This document shows, piece by piece, positions 10,905-22,312 of a stretch of 22,432 nt of DNA. Source of the stretch: a virus; the IMG/VR virus record IMGVR_UViG_3300048837_002016, positions 1 to 22,432 of that record. One strand, written 5' to 3'. Position numbers and translations under genes: made by a program. The notes below the pieces were generated by a model that ran no database searches, had not been told where the DNA came from, and worked only from the letters and a program-made list of their open reading frames with translations. Numbering within the stretch: the stretch's first letter is position 1; each line of letters starts with the position of its first letter.

Positions 10905-12164
10905 TCAGCCTCCGCCGTTACGTTCTGCAGCCAATTCGGAAAAGGGCCGTCCATCGCCATCCAGCACGGCAGCCTTGCCCGTTTCCTCCTGCCAGCGCAG
11001 CACGATGACATCGACGTATTTGGGATCGAGTTCCAGCAATCTGGCCTGCCGACCCGTGCGTTCACAGGCGATCATGGTGGTTCCGGAACCACCGAAGGGG
11101 TCGAGGACGATCTCACCCTCCCGCGAGGAATTGCCGATGGCCCGCGCCACCAGTTCCACCGGCTTCATGGTCGGATGGAGATCGTTCCGGGCCGGTTTGT
11201 TGATCGGCCAGACGTCTCCCTGGTCTCGGGCGCCGCACCAGTAATGACCGCCGCCTTCTTTCCAGCCGTACAGAATCGGCTCGTACTGGCGTTGGTAATC
11301 CGAGCGCCCCAAGGTGAAGGTGTTCTTGGCCCAGATGATGAACGTTGACCAGTGCCCGCCTGCTTCGAGGAATGCACTCTGGAGGGTGTGCAGTTCCGAC
11401 GAGGACATGCACATATAAACCGCGCCCTTGGTGACGGTTAGAATGTTGACGCAGACATCATACAGGAACTGCTTGAATCCGCCGCCCAGGGCGTCATTGA
11501 GGATGCGGCGGCCTTTGCCGCCCTTACCGGGGGCACCGTAATCGACATTGTAGGGGCTGTCGGTAAAACACATATCGGCGGGTGTGCCGTCCAGCACCTT
11601 TTCCACATCGGTCAGTATGGTGCTGTCGCCGCACAGTAGGCGGTGGCGGCCTAAAATCCACAGATCACCGGGCCGGGTCACTGGATCGGCGGGCGGTTCC
11701 GGGATCTCGTCTTCGTCCCCGTCGCCCTGGCCTTCGCCTTCATCGTCGAGGGGCGCCATCAGGGCGTCCAGTTCCTCGGCGGAAAAACCGATCAGATCGA
11801 GATCGTAGCCCTCGGCGTTCAGCGCATGCAGTTCCGCCGCCAGGGTTTCATCGTCCCAACCGGCGTTCAGGGCCAGCTTGTTGTCGGCCAGGATGTAGGC
11901 GCGGCGCTGGGCCTCGGTCAGATGGTCCAGGATCACCACCGGCACCGTGGTCAGGCCCAGGGACTTGGCGGCGGCCAGTCGGCCATGCCCGGCGATGACG
12001 TTGCCTTGGCTGTCGGACAGAACCGGATTGGTCCAGCCGAACTCGACCATGCTGGCGGCGATCTGGGCCACTTGGCTGTCCGAATGGGTCCGCGCATTGC
12101 GGCCATAGGGGATCAGCCGGTCGATGGGCCAAGCCTCGACCGTGTCGGGAAGCGGATGGGTCAT
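10905..12164 (-). CDS. ParB-domain N4/N6 DNA methyltransferase
   Basis: A 419-residue fusion of a ParB/sulfiredoxin-like N-terminal domain and an amino-methyltransferase. The ParB part shows RLIPYGRNARTHS (17-28), IAASMVEFGWTNPV and VIAGHGRLAAAKSLGL (56-71). An acidic linker covers 139-160. The catalytic motif IV is TDSPYNVDY (201-209), where DPPY or NPPY is normal, and the SAM-binding motif is LDPFGGSGTT (354-363), giving the motif IV-first order of the beta class. The target recognition region lies between them. The ATG overlaps the upstream cytosine methyltransferase stop (TAATG); an open extension to 12203 is ignored. Such fusions are common in phages, where they guard DNA against host restriction. 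Confidence 0.88.
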   Translation of the reverse strand: MTHPLPDTVEAWPIDRLIPYGRNARTHSDSQVAQIAASMVEFGWTNPVLSDSQGNVIAGHGRLAAAKSLGLTTVPVVILDHLTEAQRRAYILADNKLALNAGWDDETLAAELHALNAEGYDLDLIGFSAEELDALMAPLDDEGEGQGDGDEDEIPEPPADPVTRPGDLWILGRHRLLCGDSTILTDVEKVLDGTPADMCFTDSPYNVDYGAPGKGGKGRRILNDALGGGFKQFLYDVCVNILTVTKGAVYMCMSSSELHTLQSAFLEAGGHWSTFIIWAKNTFTLGRSDYQRQYEPILYGWKEGGGHYWCGARDQGDVWPINKPARNDLHPTMKPVELVARAIGNSSREGEIVLDPFGGSGTTMIACERTGRQARLLELDPKYVDVIVLRWQEETGKAAVLDGDGRPFSELAAERNGGG

Positions 12165-13777
12165 TATCGTTTTCCAACGTCCTGGATGCGTCGGCCCAGC
12201 CACGCCATCACCGGCACGGCCATGGAATTGCCCAGCGCCCGGTAGCGCGGGCCATCGGGACAGTTCTCGACTGTCTTCCGTCGCCAGGGGATCAGGGTGA
12301 AATCATCAGGGAAACCCTGGAGCCGCTCGCATTCGCGGGGTGTCAGGCGGCGCACCGCCATGTCGCGTTGGACCGCCAATTGCCCTCCGGCATTGTCGCG
12401 GCCCAAGGCGTTCATCGCCCGTAATGTCGGTGCTACGGTTCCGGCAGCAACCGGGGTCGCAGCCTTGCCGTCGAACGCCACATAGGTCTGCTGTTTGGTG
12501 CCCGGCTCCGCCGCCAGGGCGCCGGCAACATCCAAAGTACGGACTTCGTTCCGCTGGTTCTGGGCAAACGCCACGGCGTGCTGTTTGCCCGCCTGCAAGG
12601 TGAACATGGGATCGCCGTCACCACCGATGCCGCTCCCGGCACGGGGATCCGTGGTGCTGATTCCCGTGCGGGCACCTGCTTCCAGAATGGGAAACGCCAC
12701 CGGCACCAGCGGCGTGCCGCGTCCGGTGCCGTCTTCCGAGGCGTCGAAGCCCTCGCCGCGCAGGGAATGGGTGACCAGGGTGTCGATGTCGGGCCGGTGG
12801 GCGAGGTTCGCCTTGGCCCGCAGGGTGTGAGCGATCAGCGTATCGGTGCAGTCGCTGTCCACGCCGCGCGACAAATCGCGTGCCCGCAAGGTGGTGGCGA
12901 CGAAGGTCTCGCTCTCGAAATCCATCCGCCCGCTGGCCGAGGCACAGGCGTTGAGCGCCGTGGCGATTTCGATGGGGCCGGAAGTGTTGTTGCCGCCGAA
13001 CGCCTCGGCGATCAGTCCACCGCTGGTGGCGAAAGACGTTTCGCCGCTGCGGCCAGCGCGAGCATCAAGCGTGGGGGCAACAGCTTGTTCCGCTTCTCGG
13101 CGCGGCGGATGATCCCGGCGCACGCCTTCGCGCTCAAGAAGTACTTGGACGGGATCGGCCCGGTCTCCAGCACCTGCGATAACGAACACACGGCGGCGGC
13201 GTTGGGCCAGGCCGAAATATTGGGCGTCGAGCACCCGCCACGCGACTGTGCGCGAGGGTCCAAACACAACACCAGCGTCCGACCATTTGCACCCTGGCGG
13301 GACGAGCGGACCATCTTCTCCGGCCAATCCGCCCAGAAGGCATCCGAAGGCGTTGTCGCGGGTCGATAGGACTCCGGGGACGTTCTCCCAAACAACCCAA
13401 GCTGGATCGATGGCATCGGCGAGTTCCACGAATTTGAGGGCAAGATTGCCGCGGGAATCGTCCAGCGACTTGCGCAGACCCGCCACCGAGAACGCTTGGC
13501 AGGGCGTGCCACCCACCAGCACGTCGATCTTCCCCCGCCATGCCGAACCGTCGATGGCGGTCATGTCGCCCAGGTTGGGCACGGCGGGGTAATGGTGTGC
13601 CATCACGGCGGAAGGAAACGGCTCGATCTCGGCGAAGAGCGCCGCTTGCCAACCCAACGGTTCCCAAGCTGCCGTCGCGGCTTCGATCCCGCTGCACACG
13701 GAACCGTAAACCAGCCCCTGGGCGTGCGGGATCAAGCCGAGCGCCGGGGATACCGGCTCGGTGGGAGCGAGGTGCAT
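12164..13777 (-). CDS. DNA (cytosine-5) methyltransferase
   Basis: A 537-residue C5 methyltransferase with all main motifs: SAM-binding VYGSVCSGIEAATAAW (23-38), catalytic GGTPCQAFS with Cys93, ENVPG (131-135), AQRRRRVFVIA (191-201), LTPRECERLQGFPDDF (478-493) and ALGNSMAVP (514-522). The target recognition region between motifs VIII and IX is long (about 275 residues) and contains a degenerate repeat with a TL.A core. Phage enzymes of this type methylate cytosine in phage DNA and protect it from restriction. The frame is open upstream to 13984, but that part crosses the GTGGTA repeats and is low complexity, so the ATG at 13777 is preferred although no good ribosome site precedes it. Confidence 0.92.
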   Translation of the reverse strand: MHLAPTEPVSPALGLIPHAQGLVYGSVCSGIEAATAAWEPLGWQAALFAEIEPFPSAVMAHHYPAVPNLGDMTAIDGSAWRGKIDVLVGGTPCQAFSVAGLRKSLDDSRGNLALKFVELADAIDPAWVVWENVPGVLSTRDNAFGCLLGGLAGEDGPLVPPGCKWSDAGVVFGPSRTVAWRVLDAQYFGLAQRRRRVFVIAGAGDRADPVQVLLEREGVRRDHPPRREAEQAVAPTLDARAGRSGETSFATSGGLIAEAFGGNNTSGPIEIATALNACASASGRMDFESETFVATTLRARDLSRGVDSDCTDTLIAHTLRAKANLAHRPDIDTLVTHSLRGEGFDASEDGTGRGTPLVPVAFPILEAGARTGISTTDPRAGSGIGGDGDPMFTLQAGKQHAVAFAQNQRNEVRTLDVAGALAAEPGTKQQTYVAFDGKAATPVAAGTVAPTLRAMNALGRDNAGGQLAVQRDMAVRRLTPRECERLQGFPDDFTLIPWRRKTVENCPDGPRYRALGNSMAVPVMAWLGRRIQDVGKR

Positions 13778-13787
13778 GATGGTCGCC

Positions 13788-13931
13788 GTGGTACGGGGTG
13801 GTACAGGTGGTACAGGGGTGGTAGCCGAAAGGTCGGCACCTGGGTTGGCTACCACCCGGCCGGAAAGCTCGAAAGGCGCGCTTTCCATCGACAAACGCGC
13901 CTTCCGGGGTGGTAACTGGTACGGGGTGGTA
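13788..13931. repeat. GTGGTA short-repeat array upstream of the cytosine methyltransferase
   Basis: GTGGTA occurs six times on the plus strand (starting at 13788, 13798, 13807, 13818, 13909 and 13926) and once inverted (TACCAC, 13850). The first four are spaced 9-11 bases, about one helical turn. The longer word GGGTGGTAGCC is exact at 13816-13826 and 13924-13934, and inverted at 13847-13857. The array ends 10 bases before the methyltransferase ATG, where a cooperative regulator could sit. Confidence 0.75.
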
Positions 13932-14112
13932 GCCTTGATTTTTCGGCTGTCGCTAGCGAAGTTCGGCGCTGATGCCCCCCGCATAGCAAAAGTGCCCGGG
14001 AGGAACCAATTTCCGTCCGGTTTGCCTTGACTTGTACTTTTGTTGCTCTCGTCCTGGGCGGCGGATCATTTGTTGACCGTCTTCGCCGCCCCTCGCGAGC
14101 CTTGATCCATCT
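13932..14112. other. Non-coding gap between DUF6362 and methyltransferase genes, with hairpin
   Basis: I see no gene here. A perfect 10-base palindrome TCGCTAGCGA lies at 13950-13959. An 8-base inverted repeat, GGGCGGCG (14057-14064) and CGCCGCCC (14085-14092) with a 20-base loop, lies just after the end of the DUF6362 gene. On the minus strand no T-run follows, so it is not a typical intrinsic terminator. The promoter for the methyltransferase cluster may lie in this gap. Confidence 0.45.
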
Positions 14113-14592
14113 CTATCGCAAACCGGCCTCGCTCGCCATCCTCTGCGATGTATCGATACACTTTTCGCTTTCTTCCGCTGCCCTGGTGCGGGCGATCAGA
14201 TCGACCTTGGAGATGTGCTTGGGGATGCGGCGGCCGTTGAGCGTCCAGGCGATGACGCACAGCGCGAACAGCCAATGCCGGTGGGCGGCGACGCGGGACA
14301 GGCCGACCTTCCAGCAGATCACCTTCCACGGCTCGCCATCGGCCCGCAGCCAGACGATCCGGGCATCGACGGGATCGAGGAGTTGGAGCCACGGCAAGGC
14401 TTCGTCCATGCGGGTGATGGCGGCGGCCGAGGGCGGAGGGCGGCGGAACGTCACATCGTCCGTCGACCGGCATTCCTGGATGTAGGGCGGCCAGGTGCTG
14501 GCATGGCCCTGAACCCGAACCTCGGGCAGTCGGGACAGGGTGTCGGCGGCTTCGGCGAAGCGTTCCTCGACCAGGGAGGGCGTCCAGGTCAT
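14113..14592 (-). CDS. DUF6362-family phage protein
   Basis: A 159-residue protein with the DUF6362 layout: WTPSLVEERFAEAADTLSRLPEVR at the N-terminus, WPPYIQEC, ITRMDEALPWLQLLDPVDARIVWLRA, and a helix-turn-helix-like stretch PWKVICWKVGLSRVAAHRHW followed by ALCVIAWTLNGRRIP. The pattern K.I....GLSR..AHR.W resembles sigma-factor region 4 or small DNA-binding regulators, so late-gene regulation is possible but unproven. The start at 14592 is set by the ATGA overlap with the resolvase stop. The frame is open upstream to 14787, but that part is shadow sequence. It is the last gene of the replication operon before the repeat array. Confidence 0.8.
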   Translation of the reverse strand: MTWTPSLVEERFAEAADTLSRLPEVRVQGHASTWPPYIQECRSTDDVTFRRPPPSAAAITRMDEALPWLQLLDPVDARIVWLRADGEPWKVICWKVGLSRVAAHRHWLFALCVIAWTLNGRRIPKHISKVDLIARTRAAEESEKCIDTSQRMASEAGLR

Positions 14593-15056
14593 TGGGCACC
14601 TCCCTGGGTGTCGATGACCCAGGTGAGGATCGCCAACGCGTCGGCCTCGTTGTCGTCGGCGGGGTGGTGACCGCGTGCCTGCATGGCGGCGATCACCGCG
14701 TCCTTGCCCGCATTGCCCTTGCCGGTGGCGTGGCGCTTGATGGTCCCGACCGGTACACCCTGGTACGGGATGTGTTTCAGTTCGCACCAGGCGGTGAGAT
14801 GGGCCAGGAAGCCGCCATAGATGTGGGCGGCGTCGGTGCCGGCATGGCGGCGGACTTCCTCGAAATGCAGGAGGTCGATCTTCTTGGCGGCGAATTCCAG
14901 GTGGTCGAGCCAGGAGCGGAAGCGTAGGAAACGCATGCCGCCGCCTTCATAGCGGCCGGGCTTGAATTCCATGGTGCCGGAAACGACGGAACCATCGGCC
15001 AGACGCATGGCCCAGCCGGTGGTGGAGCCCAGATCAAGGGCGAGGATGGTGGTCAT
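14589..15056 (-). CDS. RuvC-like Holliday junction resolvase
   Basis: A 155-residue protein with the RNase H fold of RuvC-type resolvases. The first catalytic Asp is Asp8 in ILALDLGSTTGWA, the Glu is at 66-67 in LLHFEEVRRH, and the C-terminal pair lies in ADDNEADALAIL (Asp135 and Asp139). The IP..GVPVGTIKRHATGKGNAGKDAV stretch matches the central signature of phage resolvases. Such enzymes cut branched replication or recombination intermediates before packaging. The ATG at 15056 is the first codon before the conserved strand; no clear ribosome site is seen. It is the first gene downstream of the iteron region, and its stop overlaps the DUF6362 start. Confidence 0.9.
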   Translation of the reverse strand: MTTILALDLGSTTGWAMRLADGSVVSGTMEFKPGRYEGGGMRFLRFRSWLDHLEFAAKKIDLLHFEEVRRHAGTDAAHIYGGFLAHLTAWCELKHIPYQGVPVGTIKRHATGKGNAGKDAVIAAMQARGHHPADDNEADALAILTWVIDTQGGAQ

Positions 15057-15147
15057 GGTGAAGGCTCACAAGGTCTGTGGGCCTTCGGCTTTGGTCGAGA
15101 GGGAGTCTATGGATGTCGGATTCACGGATCAAGCGGTTTCCGGGTCC

Positions 15148-15461
15148 GTCCCAACGTCCCAACCTTTTTGGCCTTTTGAAACATTTTCCCGGCAGGGAAT
15201 ATTTACGGCATATAGGATGTGTGGCCATCAGCAACACACAACCAATATGGCGCATTTTTCTTTTCCCTCACAAACTCTCAAAGAGGTTGGGACGGATGGG
15301 ACGGTTGGGACACAGCCTGGATTTCTGCGGTTTTCCGGCGTCCCAACCTCAAGCCGGAGGTTGGGACGATTGATGGAGGTTGGGACGGATGGTCAACCGA
15401 CCGGACGGGCCGACGTCCCAACCTCGTTCCGGCCATTGCGGGAATGGATCGGGGTTGGGAC
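15148..15461. repeat. GTTGGGAC iteron region, candidate replication origin
   Basis: Nine exact copies of GTTGGGAC lie in 314 non-coding bases. Plus orientation starts are 15286, 15304, 15360, 15379 and 15454; inverted copies (GTCCCAAC) start at 15148, 15156, 15340 and 15415. A variant, GATGGGAC at 15295, makes three tandem 9-base units GG(T/A)TGGGAC at 15285-15311. Between the first inverted pair and the rest, about 15164-15284 is AT-rich with T-runs (CTTTTTGG, CATTTTTC). Iterons beside an AT-rich block next to a primase-helicase gene are typical of replication origins. An operator array for the resolvase promoter is the alternative. Confidence 0.7.
15340..15367. repeat. Perfect 11-base inverted repeat within the iteron region
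   Basis: GTCCCAACCTC (15340-15350) and GAGGTTGGGAC (15357-15367) are exact reverse complements separated by six bases (AAGCCG). The arms each contain one iteron, so the structure places two binding sites face to face or forms a cruciform. It lacks a following T-run on either strand. Confidence 0.8.
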
Positions 15462-15675
15462 GCGATCCGAAGCCGGCACGGCTCACCGATGGGCACAAGA
15501 TCGATTACGGGGGATTTCGGGACCATCAGTCCCATGTTCGGCAGCCACCGTGTCGCCGCGGCAATACCGGCGGCGCGGCGGTCGGTCGGGGGACGTCGAA
15601 AGCAGAGTATGCCGCTACGGAGGCGTGCGGCCGTCGAGGTGGTGCGATCTGTGCGTGCCGGGGTTCAGAATGGGG
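15462..15675. other. Non-coding stretch between iterons and the primase gene end
   Basis: No gene, repeat or RNA is recognised in these 214 bases. Open frames exist on both strands but have no family resemblance and no ribosome site. The bases before the first iteron (15057-15147) likewise hold only the untranslated leader of the resolvase gene. Confidence 0.4.
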
Positions 15676-18231
15676 TCAGCTTGGCACTCGATAACGCCAT
15701 TCCCGGCTGGCGACACCGTTGCGGTACCGCTCCCACTTCCTGGCCTTCAGATACGCCGAGACCCGCATCTGCTCGCTTCGTCCCCAACGGCCCGGCTCGA
15801 TGCCAATGGCATGCTGGAGGATTTCGCTGACCGACACATCGGTGAGCGGTTGGGATCGGGCCACTTCCACATCGCACCAATCGTCGTAGACGCCATGGCC
15901 GCGATTGATCCGCTCCTTGTCGTAGACCAGCCAGTGGTCGATCAGCCCGTCCCAGGCATCGCCCTGATAGCGCTCTTCCTGCTCGGCTTCGGCTTCACGC
16001 CTGGTGTCCTCGTCGATGATCCACCATTTGACACCCTTGGCGTACCAGGCCATCGCTTCCGCCCAAAGCTGGTCACGGTCGCGGCGGAGCGCGTCAATGT
16101 CGATTCGGCCGCAGCGGACGGGCCAGAAGCGGCGGTTGCCGGTTTCATCGCGCAGGTAGGTGTCGGGATTGACGCTGCCGGCGAACACGCATTGGCGCGG
16201 CACATTGATGACGTAGCGGCCGTAGGGCGGGCGGTAGCGGTCGATGGTGCGGGTCAGAAACGACTTGATGCGAGACACCTCGGCGCGGCCGATGGCGTCC
16301 AGTTCGGCGATCTCGATGATCCAGACGCCGCACATCTGCTGGGCGGCATCCTTGCTGCCGATCTCGGCCAACTCGTCGGTGAACCAATCGGCCCCCGCCA
16401 ATGTCCTTAGCGCCGTGGATTTTCGTGCGCCTTGCGGTCCTTCCAGGATCAGCATGTGGTCGGCCTGGACACCCGGGTCCATGATTCGGGCCACCGCCGA
16501 GACCATCCACAGGGGGGCGAAGGCGCGATTGAGACGGGTGTCGGCCGCGCCCAGATAGGTGATGGCCCAGGCTTCCAGCCGGGATACGCCATCCCATTTC
16601 AGGGCGGTCAGATAGTCCCGCACCGGATGGACACGGTTCTGGCGCGTGACGGCGCTGATGCCGCGAGCGACCACGGCGGGAGAAATGTTGATGTCGCGGC
16701 GCTGGAGCCATTCGGCGCAACGGACATCGTCGGAATCGGACCAGGGGCGTGGGAACGCGGTGCCGTCATCCCAGGGCAGCGGACGGTTGACCATGATCTC
16801 CTGACGGAATTCGTCGAATATCAATGCCCCGGCGAAGGCCTGATCATGAGAAATGGCCGTGATGACGTTGGCCTCGTTGCGCTCGGGATTGCCGTCGGGG
16901 CCGGTGCGGATCCGGTCGAACCATGCCGGGCGGACGGATTGGGTGCCATCACCGTTGCGCAGTTCCCGTCGAAGCGCCGCGAGGTGCTTCTCGGTGGTGG
17001 CAATCGGAATGCGGGCCGCCGCCTTGATGGCCGTCAACACCTCGCGTTCATGGGCCGGTTCGAGCCTGGCGCGGGCAAGCTGCCCCAGCACCCGGCTGAA
17101 TTCGTCCATGTCGGGCGGAAAGGTCAGCTTCAGCGCCGCGGCGCGCAGATCGTTGAACCCGGTGAGCGGAGGCGGCTCCGGCAGCCTGTTATAATGTGCG
17201 ACGACCGCGCCCTTGCCGAGGTCGTCGTTGAAGTCGTCGCCGTGCAGGGGCGAGACGATGGTGGACGGGATGTCGGCTGCGTTGAGACGGTCGGCCAGAG
17301 TGGCGGCGGCCTGCTGACCGGCGTCGCCGGCATCGGCGAAGATGGTGACGCGGGTGGTGCCCTCGGGCCATTGCCATTGACGGATGCCATTGGCCGACAG
17401 CGCCGCCCAGGTGGGCACGTTGAAGATGGCCCAGGCCGACAGGGCGGTTTCGATGCCCTCGGCGATGCCCAGGTGACCGTCGGTCGGCATGGGGGCGAGG
17501 CGGACGCTGCCGTTCTCGACCGCGCCCAGCATCTTCTTGCCCGGAGGCGCCTTGCCCGAGCCGTCTTCCAGCAGGAAGGTGCGGTGAATGCCGCCCACCA
17601 GATTGCCGGCGCCGTCACGGACGATGCCCACCAGCCCCGGCCAGCCGCGCCGGCCGTCGAAATCGGTGAGATCGTCGTGGTATAGCAGATCGGGTGATTG
17701 GGGATCGCCGACACCGCGGTTCTTCAGGTAGGCCTCGCCGACGGTGCCGGCCAGCGGCAGGACACAGCCAAGGATGCGGGCGATCTCCAGGGAATGATCC
17801 TGCTCCTTGTCGCGCGGCGGCTTGGCCGGAGCGGGGCGCGGCAACGGGCTGTCCATGCGGGCCAGTCGCGCCGCCTCGCGGAACAGGTCGCGACCCGACA
17901 AGCCGGTGACGATCTGGATCAGGTCGATGGGGCCGGCGCGTTCGCCGGTGGCATGGTCGAATCCCGTTCCGGCATGGGGGCCGGACAGATCAAGGACGCA
18001 CGATCCCAGGTTCCGGGGCGGATCGCCGCGCAGATTGGCGCAGCGCAGGGATTTTCGGTCCGGCTGCATCCTGGCGTTGGGGAATAGGCCCGGCAGCCAA
18101 TCGCGGGCGGTGTCGGCCAGCCGGTCACGGATTTCCTCCAGGTCGAATTCGCTCTCACCGTCCGATGACGGAAACCAGTGGCCCAGGATGGCACCGGGCG
18201 GTGGGGGCTGGATGGTGTTGAGGTCGATCAT
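15676..18231 (-). CDS. Toprim primase plus VapE/D5-like helicase
   Basis: An 851-residue replication protein joining two enzymes. The N-terminal half resembles phage primases: a DUF7146-like region, then a Toprim domain with GIAEGIETALSAW (255-267) and FADAGDAG (298-305). The C-terminal half is a VapE-like superfamily 3 ATPase with Walker A EGPQGARKST (597-606), Walker B WIIEIAELD (637-645), RTIDRYRPPYGR and FAGSVNPDTYLRDETGNRRFWPV (683-705). The Walker A has Arg603 where the Gly before Lys is usual. Such proteins open the origin and prime replication. Its ATG overlaps the helicase stop (ATGA), and its 3' end borders the iteron-bearing gap. Confidence 0.9.
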   Translation of the reverse strand: MIDLNTIQPPPPGAILGHWFPSSDGESEFDLEEIRDRLADTARDWLPGLFPNARMQPDRKSLRCANLRGDPPRNLGSCVLDLSGPHAGTGFDHATGERAGPIDLIQIVTGLSGRDLFREAARLARMDSPLPRPAPAKPPRDKEQDHSLEIARILGCVLPLAGTVGEAYLKNRGVGDPQSPDLLYHDDLTDFDGRRGWPGLVGIVRDGAGNLVGGIHRTFLLEDGSGKAPPGKKMLGAVENGSVRLAPMPTDGHLGIAEGIETALSAWAIFNVPTWAALSANGIRQWQWPEGTTRVTIFADAGDAGQQAAATLADRLNAADIPSTIVSPLHGDDFNDDLGKGAVVAHYNRLPEPPPLTGFNDLRAAALKLTFPPDMDEFSRVLGQLARARLEPAHEREVLTAIKAAARIPIATTEKHLAALRRELRNGDGTQSVRPAWFDRIRTGPDGNPERNEANVITAISHDQAFAGALIFDEFRQEIMVNRPLPWDDGTAFPRPWSDSDDVRCAEWLQRRDINISPAVVARGISAVTRQNRVHPVRDYLTALKWDGVSRLEAWAITYLGAADTRLNRAFAPLWMVSAVARIMDPGVQADHMLILEGPQGARKSTALRTLAGADWFTDELAEIGSKDAAQQMCGVWIIEIAELDAIGRAEVSRIKSFLTRTIDRYRPPYGRYVINVPRQCVFAGSVNPDTYLRDETGNRRFWPVRCGRIDIDALRRDRDQLWAEAMAWYAKGVKWWIIDEDTRREAEAEQEERYQGDAWDGLIDHWLVYDKERINRGHGVYDDWCDVEVARSQPLTDVSVSEILQHAIGIEPGRWGRSEQMRVSAYLKARKWERYRNGVASREWRYRVPS

Positions 18232-21562: not shown

Positions 21563-22312
21563 TCAGCCATTGAGCCAGGCCGGGCCGTTGGCCGACGGCG
21601 CGGCAGTGGACTGCTGGGTGGCGGGCTGGGGCTGGGCCGCCCCCTGCTGGTTCCAGGGAACATTGCCGGCCTGCTGCTGCGGCGCCTGCGCCGGTGCGGC
21701 ATCGGTGGCCCAGGCCGGGGCATTCTGACCACCCCCGGCATTGGCAGGCTTGCGCGGCTTGGCGTTGATCGGTTCCGCCTCCACGGCCTCGCCCTTCATC
21801 ACCGGCTCGTACTGCGGCTCGCCGGGCAGCACCACGTTGGCCAGCCGGTTCTGGTCGCGGTATTTGGGGTCGCTGGCCGGTTCGACCATGATGCGGGCGG
21901 CGAAGGTAATGCCGTCCAACTGCTTCAGTCCCTGCAAGACCCGTTTGGCCTTGGCGGCGTCGCTCATGTCCTTGGGGTTGAGGCCGAGGGCGGAATCCAC
22001 CATGGCGCGGAACGACGCCTTCGAGATATTCCAGCCTTTGGACTGGCCCTTGTCGTCGACCTTGCCGCCCGCCACCGTGAAGTTCTGCCAGAACTTGCGG
22101 CGCACAAACGGCCCCTCGACCACGGTGAATTCGCAGTCGAGCATCTTGGCGTCGCTGTCGGCCGAGGCCTTGAGCAGGCCGGCATCCATGGGGGCCGAGC
22201 CGTTGGTGCCGCCGGGGCGGATGGACATGCGGATCTTGGCGAAGGTGCCGTCGGGGATCAGTTCGCCCGTGGGCATCATCTGCGGCTGGGCGTCGTTGAA
22301 GTCGTAGGACAT
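21563..22312 (-). CDS. Phage SSB-like protein (DUF669-like)
   Basis: A 249-residue protein. The first about 165 residues form a beta-rich domain: GELIPDGTFAKIRMSIRPGG, MLDCEFTVVEGPFVRRKFWQNFTV, GWNISKASFRAMVDSALGL and GLKQLDGITFAARIMVEP. This layout resembles DUF669 proteins, OB-fold single-strand-binding proteins placed after Sak4-type ATPases; the family match is moderate. The C-terminal 75 residues are Gln/Ala/Pro-rich and disordered, with repeated Trp motifs (APAWATD, VPWNQQG, GPAWLNG), a tail like those of SSBs that recruit partners. AAAGGA is ten bases before the ATG. It follows the ATPase after 19 bases, which supports a recombination role. Confidence 0.7.
   Translation of the reverse strand: MSYDFNDAQPQMMPTGELIPDGTFAKIRMSIRPGGTNGSAPMDAGLLKASADSDAKMLDCEFTVVEGPFVRRKFWQNFTVAGGKVDDKGQSKGWNISKASFRAMVDSALGLNPKDMSDAAKAKRVLQGLKQLDGITFAARIMVEPASDPKYRDQNRLANVVLPGEPQYEPVMKGEAVEAEPINAKPRKPANAGGGQNAPAWATDAAPAQAPQQQAGNVPWNQQGAAQPQPATQQSTAAPSANGPAWLNG

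Follow-up and report, generated by a model that had tools for sequence, protein, structure and literature searches.

What is the role of a perfect palindrome built from two iterons in the gap between a VapE-like helicase gene and a RuvC-like resolvase gene? The palindrome lies in a virus contig of 22,432 bases, which was analyzed as a whole and is called the window here. Among the genome contigs found, those closest to it come from a Phaeospirillum MAG (87%) and Magnetospirillum sp. SS-4 (74%). A sequence-only reading had assigned the palindrome to the iterons of a probable replication origin, and had proposed that it is a cruciform or dimer site with a special role, such as nicking or initiator loading. 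Our comparison with related sequences supports the first assignment. In all probability, positions 15148-15461 are a prophage replication origin, the palindrome is one of its iteron pairs and the winged helix of VapE reads the iterons (Table 1).

The iteron GTTGGGAC occurs ten times in the window, against 0.86 expected. Nine of these copies are found within 15148-15461, and the tenth is isolated at 11853, within a methylase gene. The array fills the gap between the VapE gene and the RuvC-like gene. The iterons are located 215-528 bp 3' of the VapE stop codon in the window, and in relatives they occupy the same gap. A low-GC stretch separates two of the sites from the other seven. Its GC content at 15165-15282 is 0.415, the minimum among all 118-bp segments of the record (overall GC 0.66). 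The VapE-like protein matches PF05272 (E 3.3e-84) and PF13362 (E 2.9e-26), and passes the gathering score of PF05272 (282.1 bits vs a cut-off of 25).

Table 1. Features of the putative origin and the genes on both sides of it
Feature	Position	Strand	Remarks
RuvC-like Holliday junction resolvase gene, the origin's other boundary	14589..15056	-	PHROG 159, E 3.9e-27
Iteron GTTGGGAC, set next to RuvC gene	15148..15155	-	
Iteron GTTGGGAC, set next to RuvC gene	15156..15163	-	
Presumed melting region between iteron sets	15164..15285	.	GC minimum inside
Iteron GTTGGGAC, set next to VapE, inner edge	15286..15293	+	
Variant iteron GATGGGAC	15295..15302	+	
Iteron GTTGGGAC	15304..15311	+	
Head-to-head (convergent) iteron pair	15339..15368	.	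12-bp perfect arms, 6-nt spacer
Iteron, left arm of the pair	15340..15347	-	
Iteron, right arm of the pair	15360..15367	+	
Iteron, direct repeat	15379..15386	+	19 bp from the pair's right arm
Iteron, outer part of VapE-side set	15415..15422	-	
Iteron, outer part of VapE-side set	15454..15461	+	
Toprim primase / VapE-like helicase gene, proposed initiator	15676..18231	-	851 aa; Pfam PF05272, PF13362
Predicted C-terminal winged helix of VapE, aa 801-851	15679..15831	-	AlphaFold2
Word-linked residues in the VapE winged helix			R818, S825, R837; R835 post hoc

The exact inverted repeat is present as described, with inner 11-mers GTCCCAACCTC (15340-15350) and GAGGTTGGGAC (15357-15367) on either side of the spacer AAGCCG. 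In addition, C15339 pairs with G15368, so that the arms are 12 bp, one base longer per side than first noted. The left arm is CGTCCCAACCTC (15339-15350) and the right arm is GAGGTTGGGACG (15357-15368), with six bases between them. This 30-base arrangement, allowing up to three mismatches, is found once in the window and in none of 100 shuffles. The CTC/GAG bases that extend the iteron had been given a special role. However, the 11-mer composed of the iteron and these bases is found five times, and CTC/GAG is therefore an ordinary iteron flank. An array of many iterons in both orientations, spread over 314 bp, can be expected to contain some head-to-head pair. What appears to go beyond chance is that the pair and its spacing are retained in relatives.

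The relatives have the same layout and a different word. GTTGGGAC was not found in the VapE-RuvC gaps of nine relatives (L001-L008 and L131). Eight of the nine gap stretches hold a similar arrangement of another word at the equivalent place. The other words include GGTGGGAAC, GGTGGTGAC, GGTGGTGCA, GGTGGGACA and GGTTGGTGAC; L005 carries TTGGTGAC, which is visible once a longer stretch is taken. Within one origin, the iteron copies share the changed word. The set was enlarged with alignment scans for VapE (best 80 of 221 relatives) and RuvC (best 80 of at least 584). It then contains 82 distinct VapE-gap-RuvC regions including the window, and is a sample rather than a census. One clear iteron word was found in 73 of the 82 regions, and nine have no clear word. 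Two sets separated by about 75-125 bp recur in relatives; the GC minimum in an automatic split is not always between the sets. In some relatives, mostly of one clade, the origin is at least 2 kb from VapE. RuvC is located on the same strand, no more than 5 kb 3' of VapE, in 98 loci, window included.

Viral contigs were also scanned for the head-to-head pattern, which gave at least 119 stretches. Among the stretches listed, 36 loci have at least five pattern sites within 500 bp, and 25 of the 36 contain a VapE or RuvC relative. The remaining 11 contain neither; six belong to another repeat family and five are without explanation. The other family (L014, L025, L029 and similar loci) is formed by GAAAGATTCCGTGTCCCAACGTTGGGAC..., with 43/45 matches at a 22-base spacing as judged by eye. 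No VapE or RuvC relative was found in the locus for the six loci of this family with at least five sites.

The head-to-head pair is a recurrent feature of these origins. In 64 of 73 origins, there is such a pair with a core gap no larger than 25. In a broader survey, 111 origins were reduced to 93 distinct ones. Rather than single iterons without pairs, 84 of the 93 retain two neighboring iterons that face each other head to head within 40 bp, with the changed word in both arms. This retention argues for the earlier proposal that the pair is a dimer or initiator-loading site. Of the adjacent convergent pairs at distances up to 60 bp (n=124), 101 are spaced 18-22 bp start to start, about two helical turns, and 16 are spaced 29-31 bp. 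The distance is about constant for words of six, seven and eight bases; a few TAGGAC and GTGGTGCAC pairs are found at 30-31.

The changes in the iteron word were compared with the sequence of VapE. Two features were scored. F1 is the base that precedes TGG, either T or G, and F2 is the next step, which reads GG-GAC or GG-TGAC. From the 82 regions, nine without a clear word and three with partial proteins were removed, which left 70 loci. For the first-base test, five loci with GGAC words were also set aside, which left 65. The top VapE columns in this first set are 818 and 825 for F1, and 837 for F2. Residue 825 is G in 28/28 G-words, and S, T or A in 37/37 T-words. Residue 818 is K in all 28 G-words and R in 36 of the 37 T-words, a fit of 64/65 with L199 as the exception. 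Residue 837 is Q in 21/21 GG-TGAC words and R or K in the remaining 49 loci, a fit of 70/70. Natural alleles at 818/825/837 include R/S/R in the window, K/G/R in L131, R/T/Q in L006 and K/G/Q in L002; L002 and L006 are closely related over the remainder of VapE. Crossed residue-word pairings gave no association in the 70-protein set. On a tree of the first set built from aa 1-740, the independent F1 pairs fit in 13/13 cases for 825 and in 12/13 for 818 (one pair shows no difference), and the F2 pairs fit in 6/6 cases for 837.

The rule for 825 and 837 was fixed in writing before three further scans (best 80 of 220, best 80 of 112, and 70 distinct loci of 71). Residue 818 had been noted earlier but is not part of the rule. 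New loci whose VapE tail duplicates one already used were removed, leaving 70. Five of these (L020, L050, L068, L072 and L108) were already known when the rule was fixed, leaving 65. Thirty-eight of the 65 new VapEs were callable and 27 were unscorable; at least eight of the 27 have words outside the called list. Of the 38, 36 could be aligned over nearly their full length and form the held-out set. The first-base test covers 34 of these, and the other two have GGAC words; both carry G825, in line with the frozen rule. Residue 825 predicted F1 in 33/34 held-out proteins. The exception is L208 (R818, G825), which was fetched in the first VapE scan and had been unscored before; the other held-out loci come from later scans. 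Residue 837 predicted F2 in 36/36, and residue 818, outside the written rule, predicted F1 in 34/34.

The held-out set includes many near relatives of the first set, and the tree test is the answer to this kinship. On a tree of 106 proteins built from aa 1-740, the word class changes 36 times. Fifteen independent F1 pairs are found, and on average 14.9 of them go the predicted way for both 825 and 818 (p 6e-5). The F2 pairs do so in 8/8 cases (p 0.008). The rule fits held-out proteins, and independent switches on the tree take the predicted direction apart from rare exceptions, which makes VapE the probable initiator. It is very likely that this neighboring helicase reads the iteron word.

More distant proteins were also compared. 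Four remote VapEs (30-40% identity), found via the iteron and aligned by eye, fit the rule at 825 in 4/4 cases and at 837 in 3/4, with L050 failing. The Pseudomonas phages LPPA36 and Haddon (37% identity), with K, G and R at the three positions, have six and five copies of GTGGGAC, in agreement with the prediction; since their VapE tails are near-identical, the two are taken as a single case. In Marinobacter phage PS3, a head-to-head pair and repeats of another word, GGGGTGACC, are located directly after the VapE gene. No clear iteron was found in Variovorax phage VarioGold or Acidovorax phage Aval. A random class sample of 385 genomes was considered as a held-out set. It gave 65 with a match, remote except for two in the center genome itself, and was left unused.

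A fourth position was noted post hoc. Residue 835 is K in six of the seven GGAC-word proteins and R in 99/99 others; L135 breaks the rule. Words outside the called set (AGGTAGGG-CA, AGTGGGG-CA and TTGGGGAC) are seen in L356, L359, L362, L368, L370, L372, L383 and L354. Most of these eight loci have changes in the winged helix, namely I replacing G/A/S before DQM, K835, or R at 838-839. The coincidence of other words with winged-helix changes suggests that more of the code is readable.

A structural model of the VapE C-terminus was calculated with AlphaFold2 from 62 sequences. The last 105 residues were modeled with a mean pLDDT of 82.7, with elements in the order of a winged helix: helices at aa 801-809 and 818-830 and strands at 834-837 and 845-848. 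In this model, the last helix bears 818 and 825 at a distance of two turns, and the first wing strand ends at 837. We infer that the three residues are placed where a DNA-reading head would be expected. A model of full-length VapE has a mean pLDDT of 64.6 and was interpreted for the C-terminal elements only. With the C-terminal model, Foldseek gave no match at E up to 0.001, and VIA-align gave generic winged-helix matches.

Other explanations were considered for the palindrome and the array. A cruciform or nick site, at which the palindrome would form a hairpin for nicking or for structure-based loading of the initiator, is a remote prospect. As a single strand, the sequence would fold readily (-14.3 kcal/mol, z -4.7), but the complementarity outside the iteron is not retained in related pairs. 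At inner-flank positions -1, -2, -3 and -4, 84, 89, 30 and 38 of the 101 pairs are complementary, and shuffles within word classes gave expectations of 79.7, 89.6, 44.2 and 44.6. The complementarity is thus about equal to the shuffles at -1 and -2, where an excess over cross-class shuffles is due to class composition, and below them at -3 and -4. It appears that complementarity beyond the iteron is under no selection, and therefore a protein-dimer site is favored over a cruciform. The spacer varies in length and sequence, and several relatives have imperfect arms. The nicking role proposed earlier found no support, with no match to a relaxase or nickase family among the subset of window proteins scanned. 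A transcription terminator or structured RNA after vapE would account for a GC-rich inverted repeat 3' of the gene, but its probability is negligible. The iteron word occurs in both orientations across 314 bp, no terminator-like site was found at 15000-15750, and no Rfam match at gathering score was found within the window.

The iterons might instead be repressor or activator sites for the RuvC operon, with no origin present, which we consider improbable. The RuvC gene starts downstream of the low-GC stretch, which contains two sigma-70-like matches, and many initiators also autoregulate. However, a lowest-GC stretch flanked by two sets is consistent with an origin, and the co-varying residues are in the replicative helicase itself rather than in a separate regulator. 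The control genes were RuvC and four other window genes. Even their best columns fit the F1 switch poorly (0.09-0.22 vs 0.87-0.93 for VapE 818). In the cruder projection by local alignment, the values are 0.09 for RuvC, 0.11 to 0.22 for the four other genes and 0.87 for VapE 818. Passive linkage, in which the VapE tail and the array recombine together and residues are associated with bases by hitchhiking rather than by direct reading, is very improbable. The 3' end of VapE adjoins the origin, and part of the co-variation could therefore stem from joint block movement. The F1 association is slightly up over aa 741-815 (mean 0.113 vs 0.04), and some block exchange of VapE tail and origin is likely. 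However, the F1 association peaks at 818 (0.93) and 825 (0.55), followed by 750 (0.38), and not at the VapE columns nearest the origin (839-851), which reach at most 0.23. It is at most 0.15 over aa 1-740 and at most 0.12 in RuvC columns. The rule also mostly holds in remote VapEs and where the origin is at least 2 kb away. F2 follows phylogeny more than F1 does. Residue 837 predicts its class perfectly (accuracy 1.00), and association elsewhere is 0.45 in RuvC columns and 0.63 in columns of the gene at 21563-22312 (n=73, cruder projection). In the cruder local alignment, 837 is only third in VapE (0.29). The evidence for F2 is therefore the tree test together with the perfect fit.

An origin read by VapE could function as follows. 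The C-terminal winged helix would bind each iteron. Residues 818 and 825 on the predicted recognition helix would choose the base before TGG: K and G would go with a G, and R together with S/T/A would go with a T. The choice between GG-GAC (R/K) and GG-TGAC (Q) would fall to residue 837, where the first wing strand ends. On the head-to-head pair, two protomers would be located about two helical turns apart, and may help to nucleate helicase assemblies. These assemblies would melt the low-GC segment, where replication would start, and the primase half of VapE would then provide primers.

Similar arrangements have been described in SaPI/PICI elements. Passages on these elements place the origin directly 3' of the initiator-helicase gene, with an AT-rich region between two iteron sets and recognition of the iterons by the helicase C-terminal domain (PMC6092414, PMC7581432). 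The same passages give no residue-level specificity code (PMC6092414, PMC7581432). Like them, the window has its origin just 3' of the initiator-helicase gene, with at least 2 kb between the genes in some relatives, and two iteron sets around an AT-rich region, and the iteron word appears to vary with the initiator's C-terminal domain. Unlike them, it belongs to prophage-type contigs (nearest named relatives Phaeospirillum and Magnetospirillum), its VapE is joined to a Toprim primase half, and a RuvC gene is located on the far side of the origin. Sequence comparison thus suggests that the element works like the SaPI/PICI Rep-iteron origins, with a partly readable specificity code, in prophages. 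The likeness is claimed for the replicon; we do not call the element itself a PICI. The SCCmec helicase Cch2 is described as binding repeats just downstream of its gene with its C-terminal domain (aa 400-538) (PMC7581432). The window has repeats in the same place, with the C-terminal domain as the predicted reader. Unlike the window array, the putative Cch2 origin is described with only three 5-nt iterons (PMC7581432).

PriRep1 on dsDNA (PDB 7pds) matches the helicase part of VapE in sequence (E 1.7e-48, aa 452-768). This match stops short of the VapE C-terminal domain, where a weak structural match (Z 6.0, 85 residues, rmsd 3.7) is found amid unrelated folds of similar Z. The alpha protein of phage P4 combines primase, helicase and origin recognition in one protein. 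It resembles VapE in its combined functions, and we liken P4 alpha with ori/crr by protein functions rather than by iteron word or layout. P4 replication is described as requiring alpha and its cognate ori (PMC6092414). In the PLE RepA/Odn system of Vibrio, origin and initiator DNA-binding domain are reported to co-vary and to be swapped as a module in a mobile element (PMC8263062). Origin word and initiator domain co-vary here as well. However, the PLE initiator is described as a RepA_N protein and not a predicted helicase (PMC7145576), and the PLE iterons as semi-palindromes of about 30 bp (PMC8263062). Among the papers listed in our literature searches, none was seen to describe the window origin or the residue-base code.

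Apparently, four related prophages with four words are found in Magnetospirillum sp. SS-4. The words are GTGGGAAC (L001), GGTAGGAC (L135), AGTGGCCA (L474) and GTGGCCCA (L214). The four loci share one IMG genome number, and the L001 contig is the SS-4 contig of L132. A search of the SS-4 genome gave four matches, two full-length and two with the primase half only. In L474 and L214, the VapE primase half is kept and the helicase half is DUF927, described as the type of SaPIbov1 Rep (PMC7581432). The related prophages as a group may carry a modular address system, a tentative proposal that we put at a little under even. In such a system, a reading head of three to four residues and a largely predictable word would be switched repeatedly so that co-resident prophages avoid cross-firing. 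Even the entire helicase half could be replaced, with DUF927 taking the place of VapE next to the same primase half, and the word would change as well. A need to avoid cross-firing could plausibly drive word diversity, although the case rests on one genome, and would give a reason for origin diversification among co-resident elements.

Knowledge of initiator-origin specificity usually comes from single replicons. In the present set, dozens of natural alleles tie a few residues to bases, and the recognition code of a self-loading helicase is therefore directly testable. Origins of uncultured prophages may be located in this way, with the word partly predictable from the protein sequence. If our reading is true, a design that one paper called unique to phage satellites extends to a broad prophage group, which would be a counter-example.

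Several additional features are found near the array. A GAAGGC...GCCTTC inverted repeat is located at 15060-15086 (minus strand), immediately upstream of the RuvC start codon. This pattern is present in 85 of 125 regions, and the 30 shown are nearly identical despite different iterons. It is possibly a translation-control hairpin. The RuvC-like frame in L002, L003, L006, L007 and L008 has an additional N-terminal stretch that is missing from the window protein. Beyond the RuvC gene, two overlapping DNA methylase genes (10905-12203 and 12164-13984) are located on the same strand, one of the N6/N4 type with a ParB-like N-terminus and one of the C5 type.
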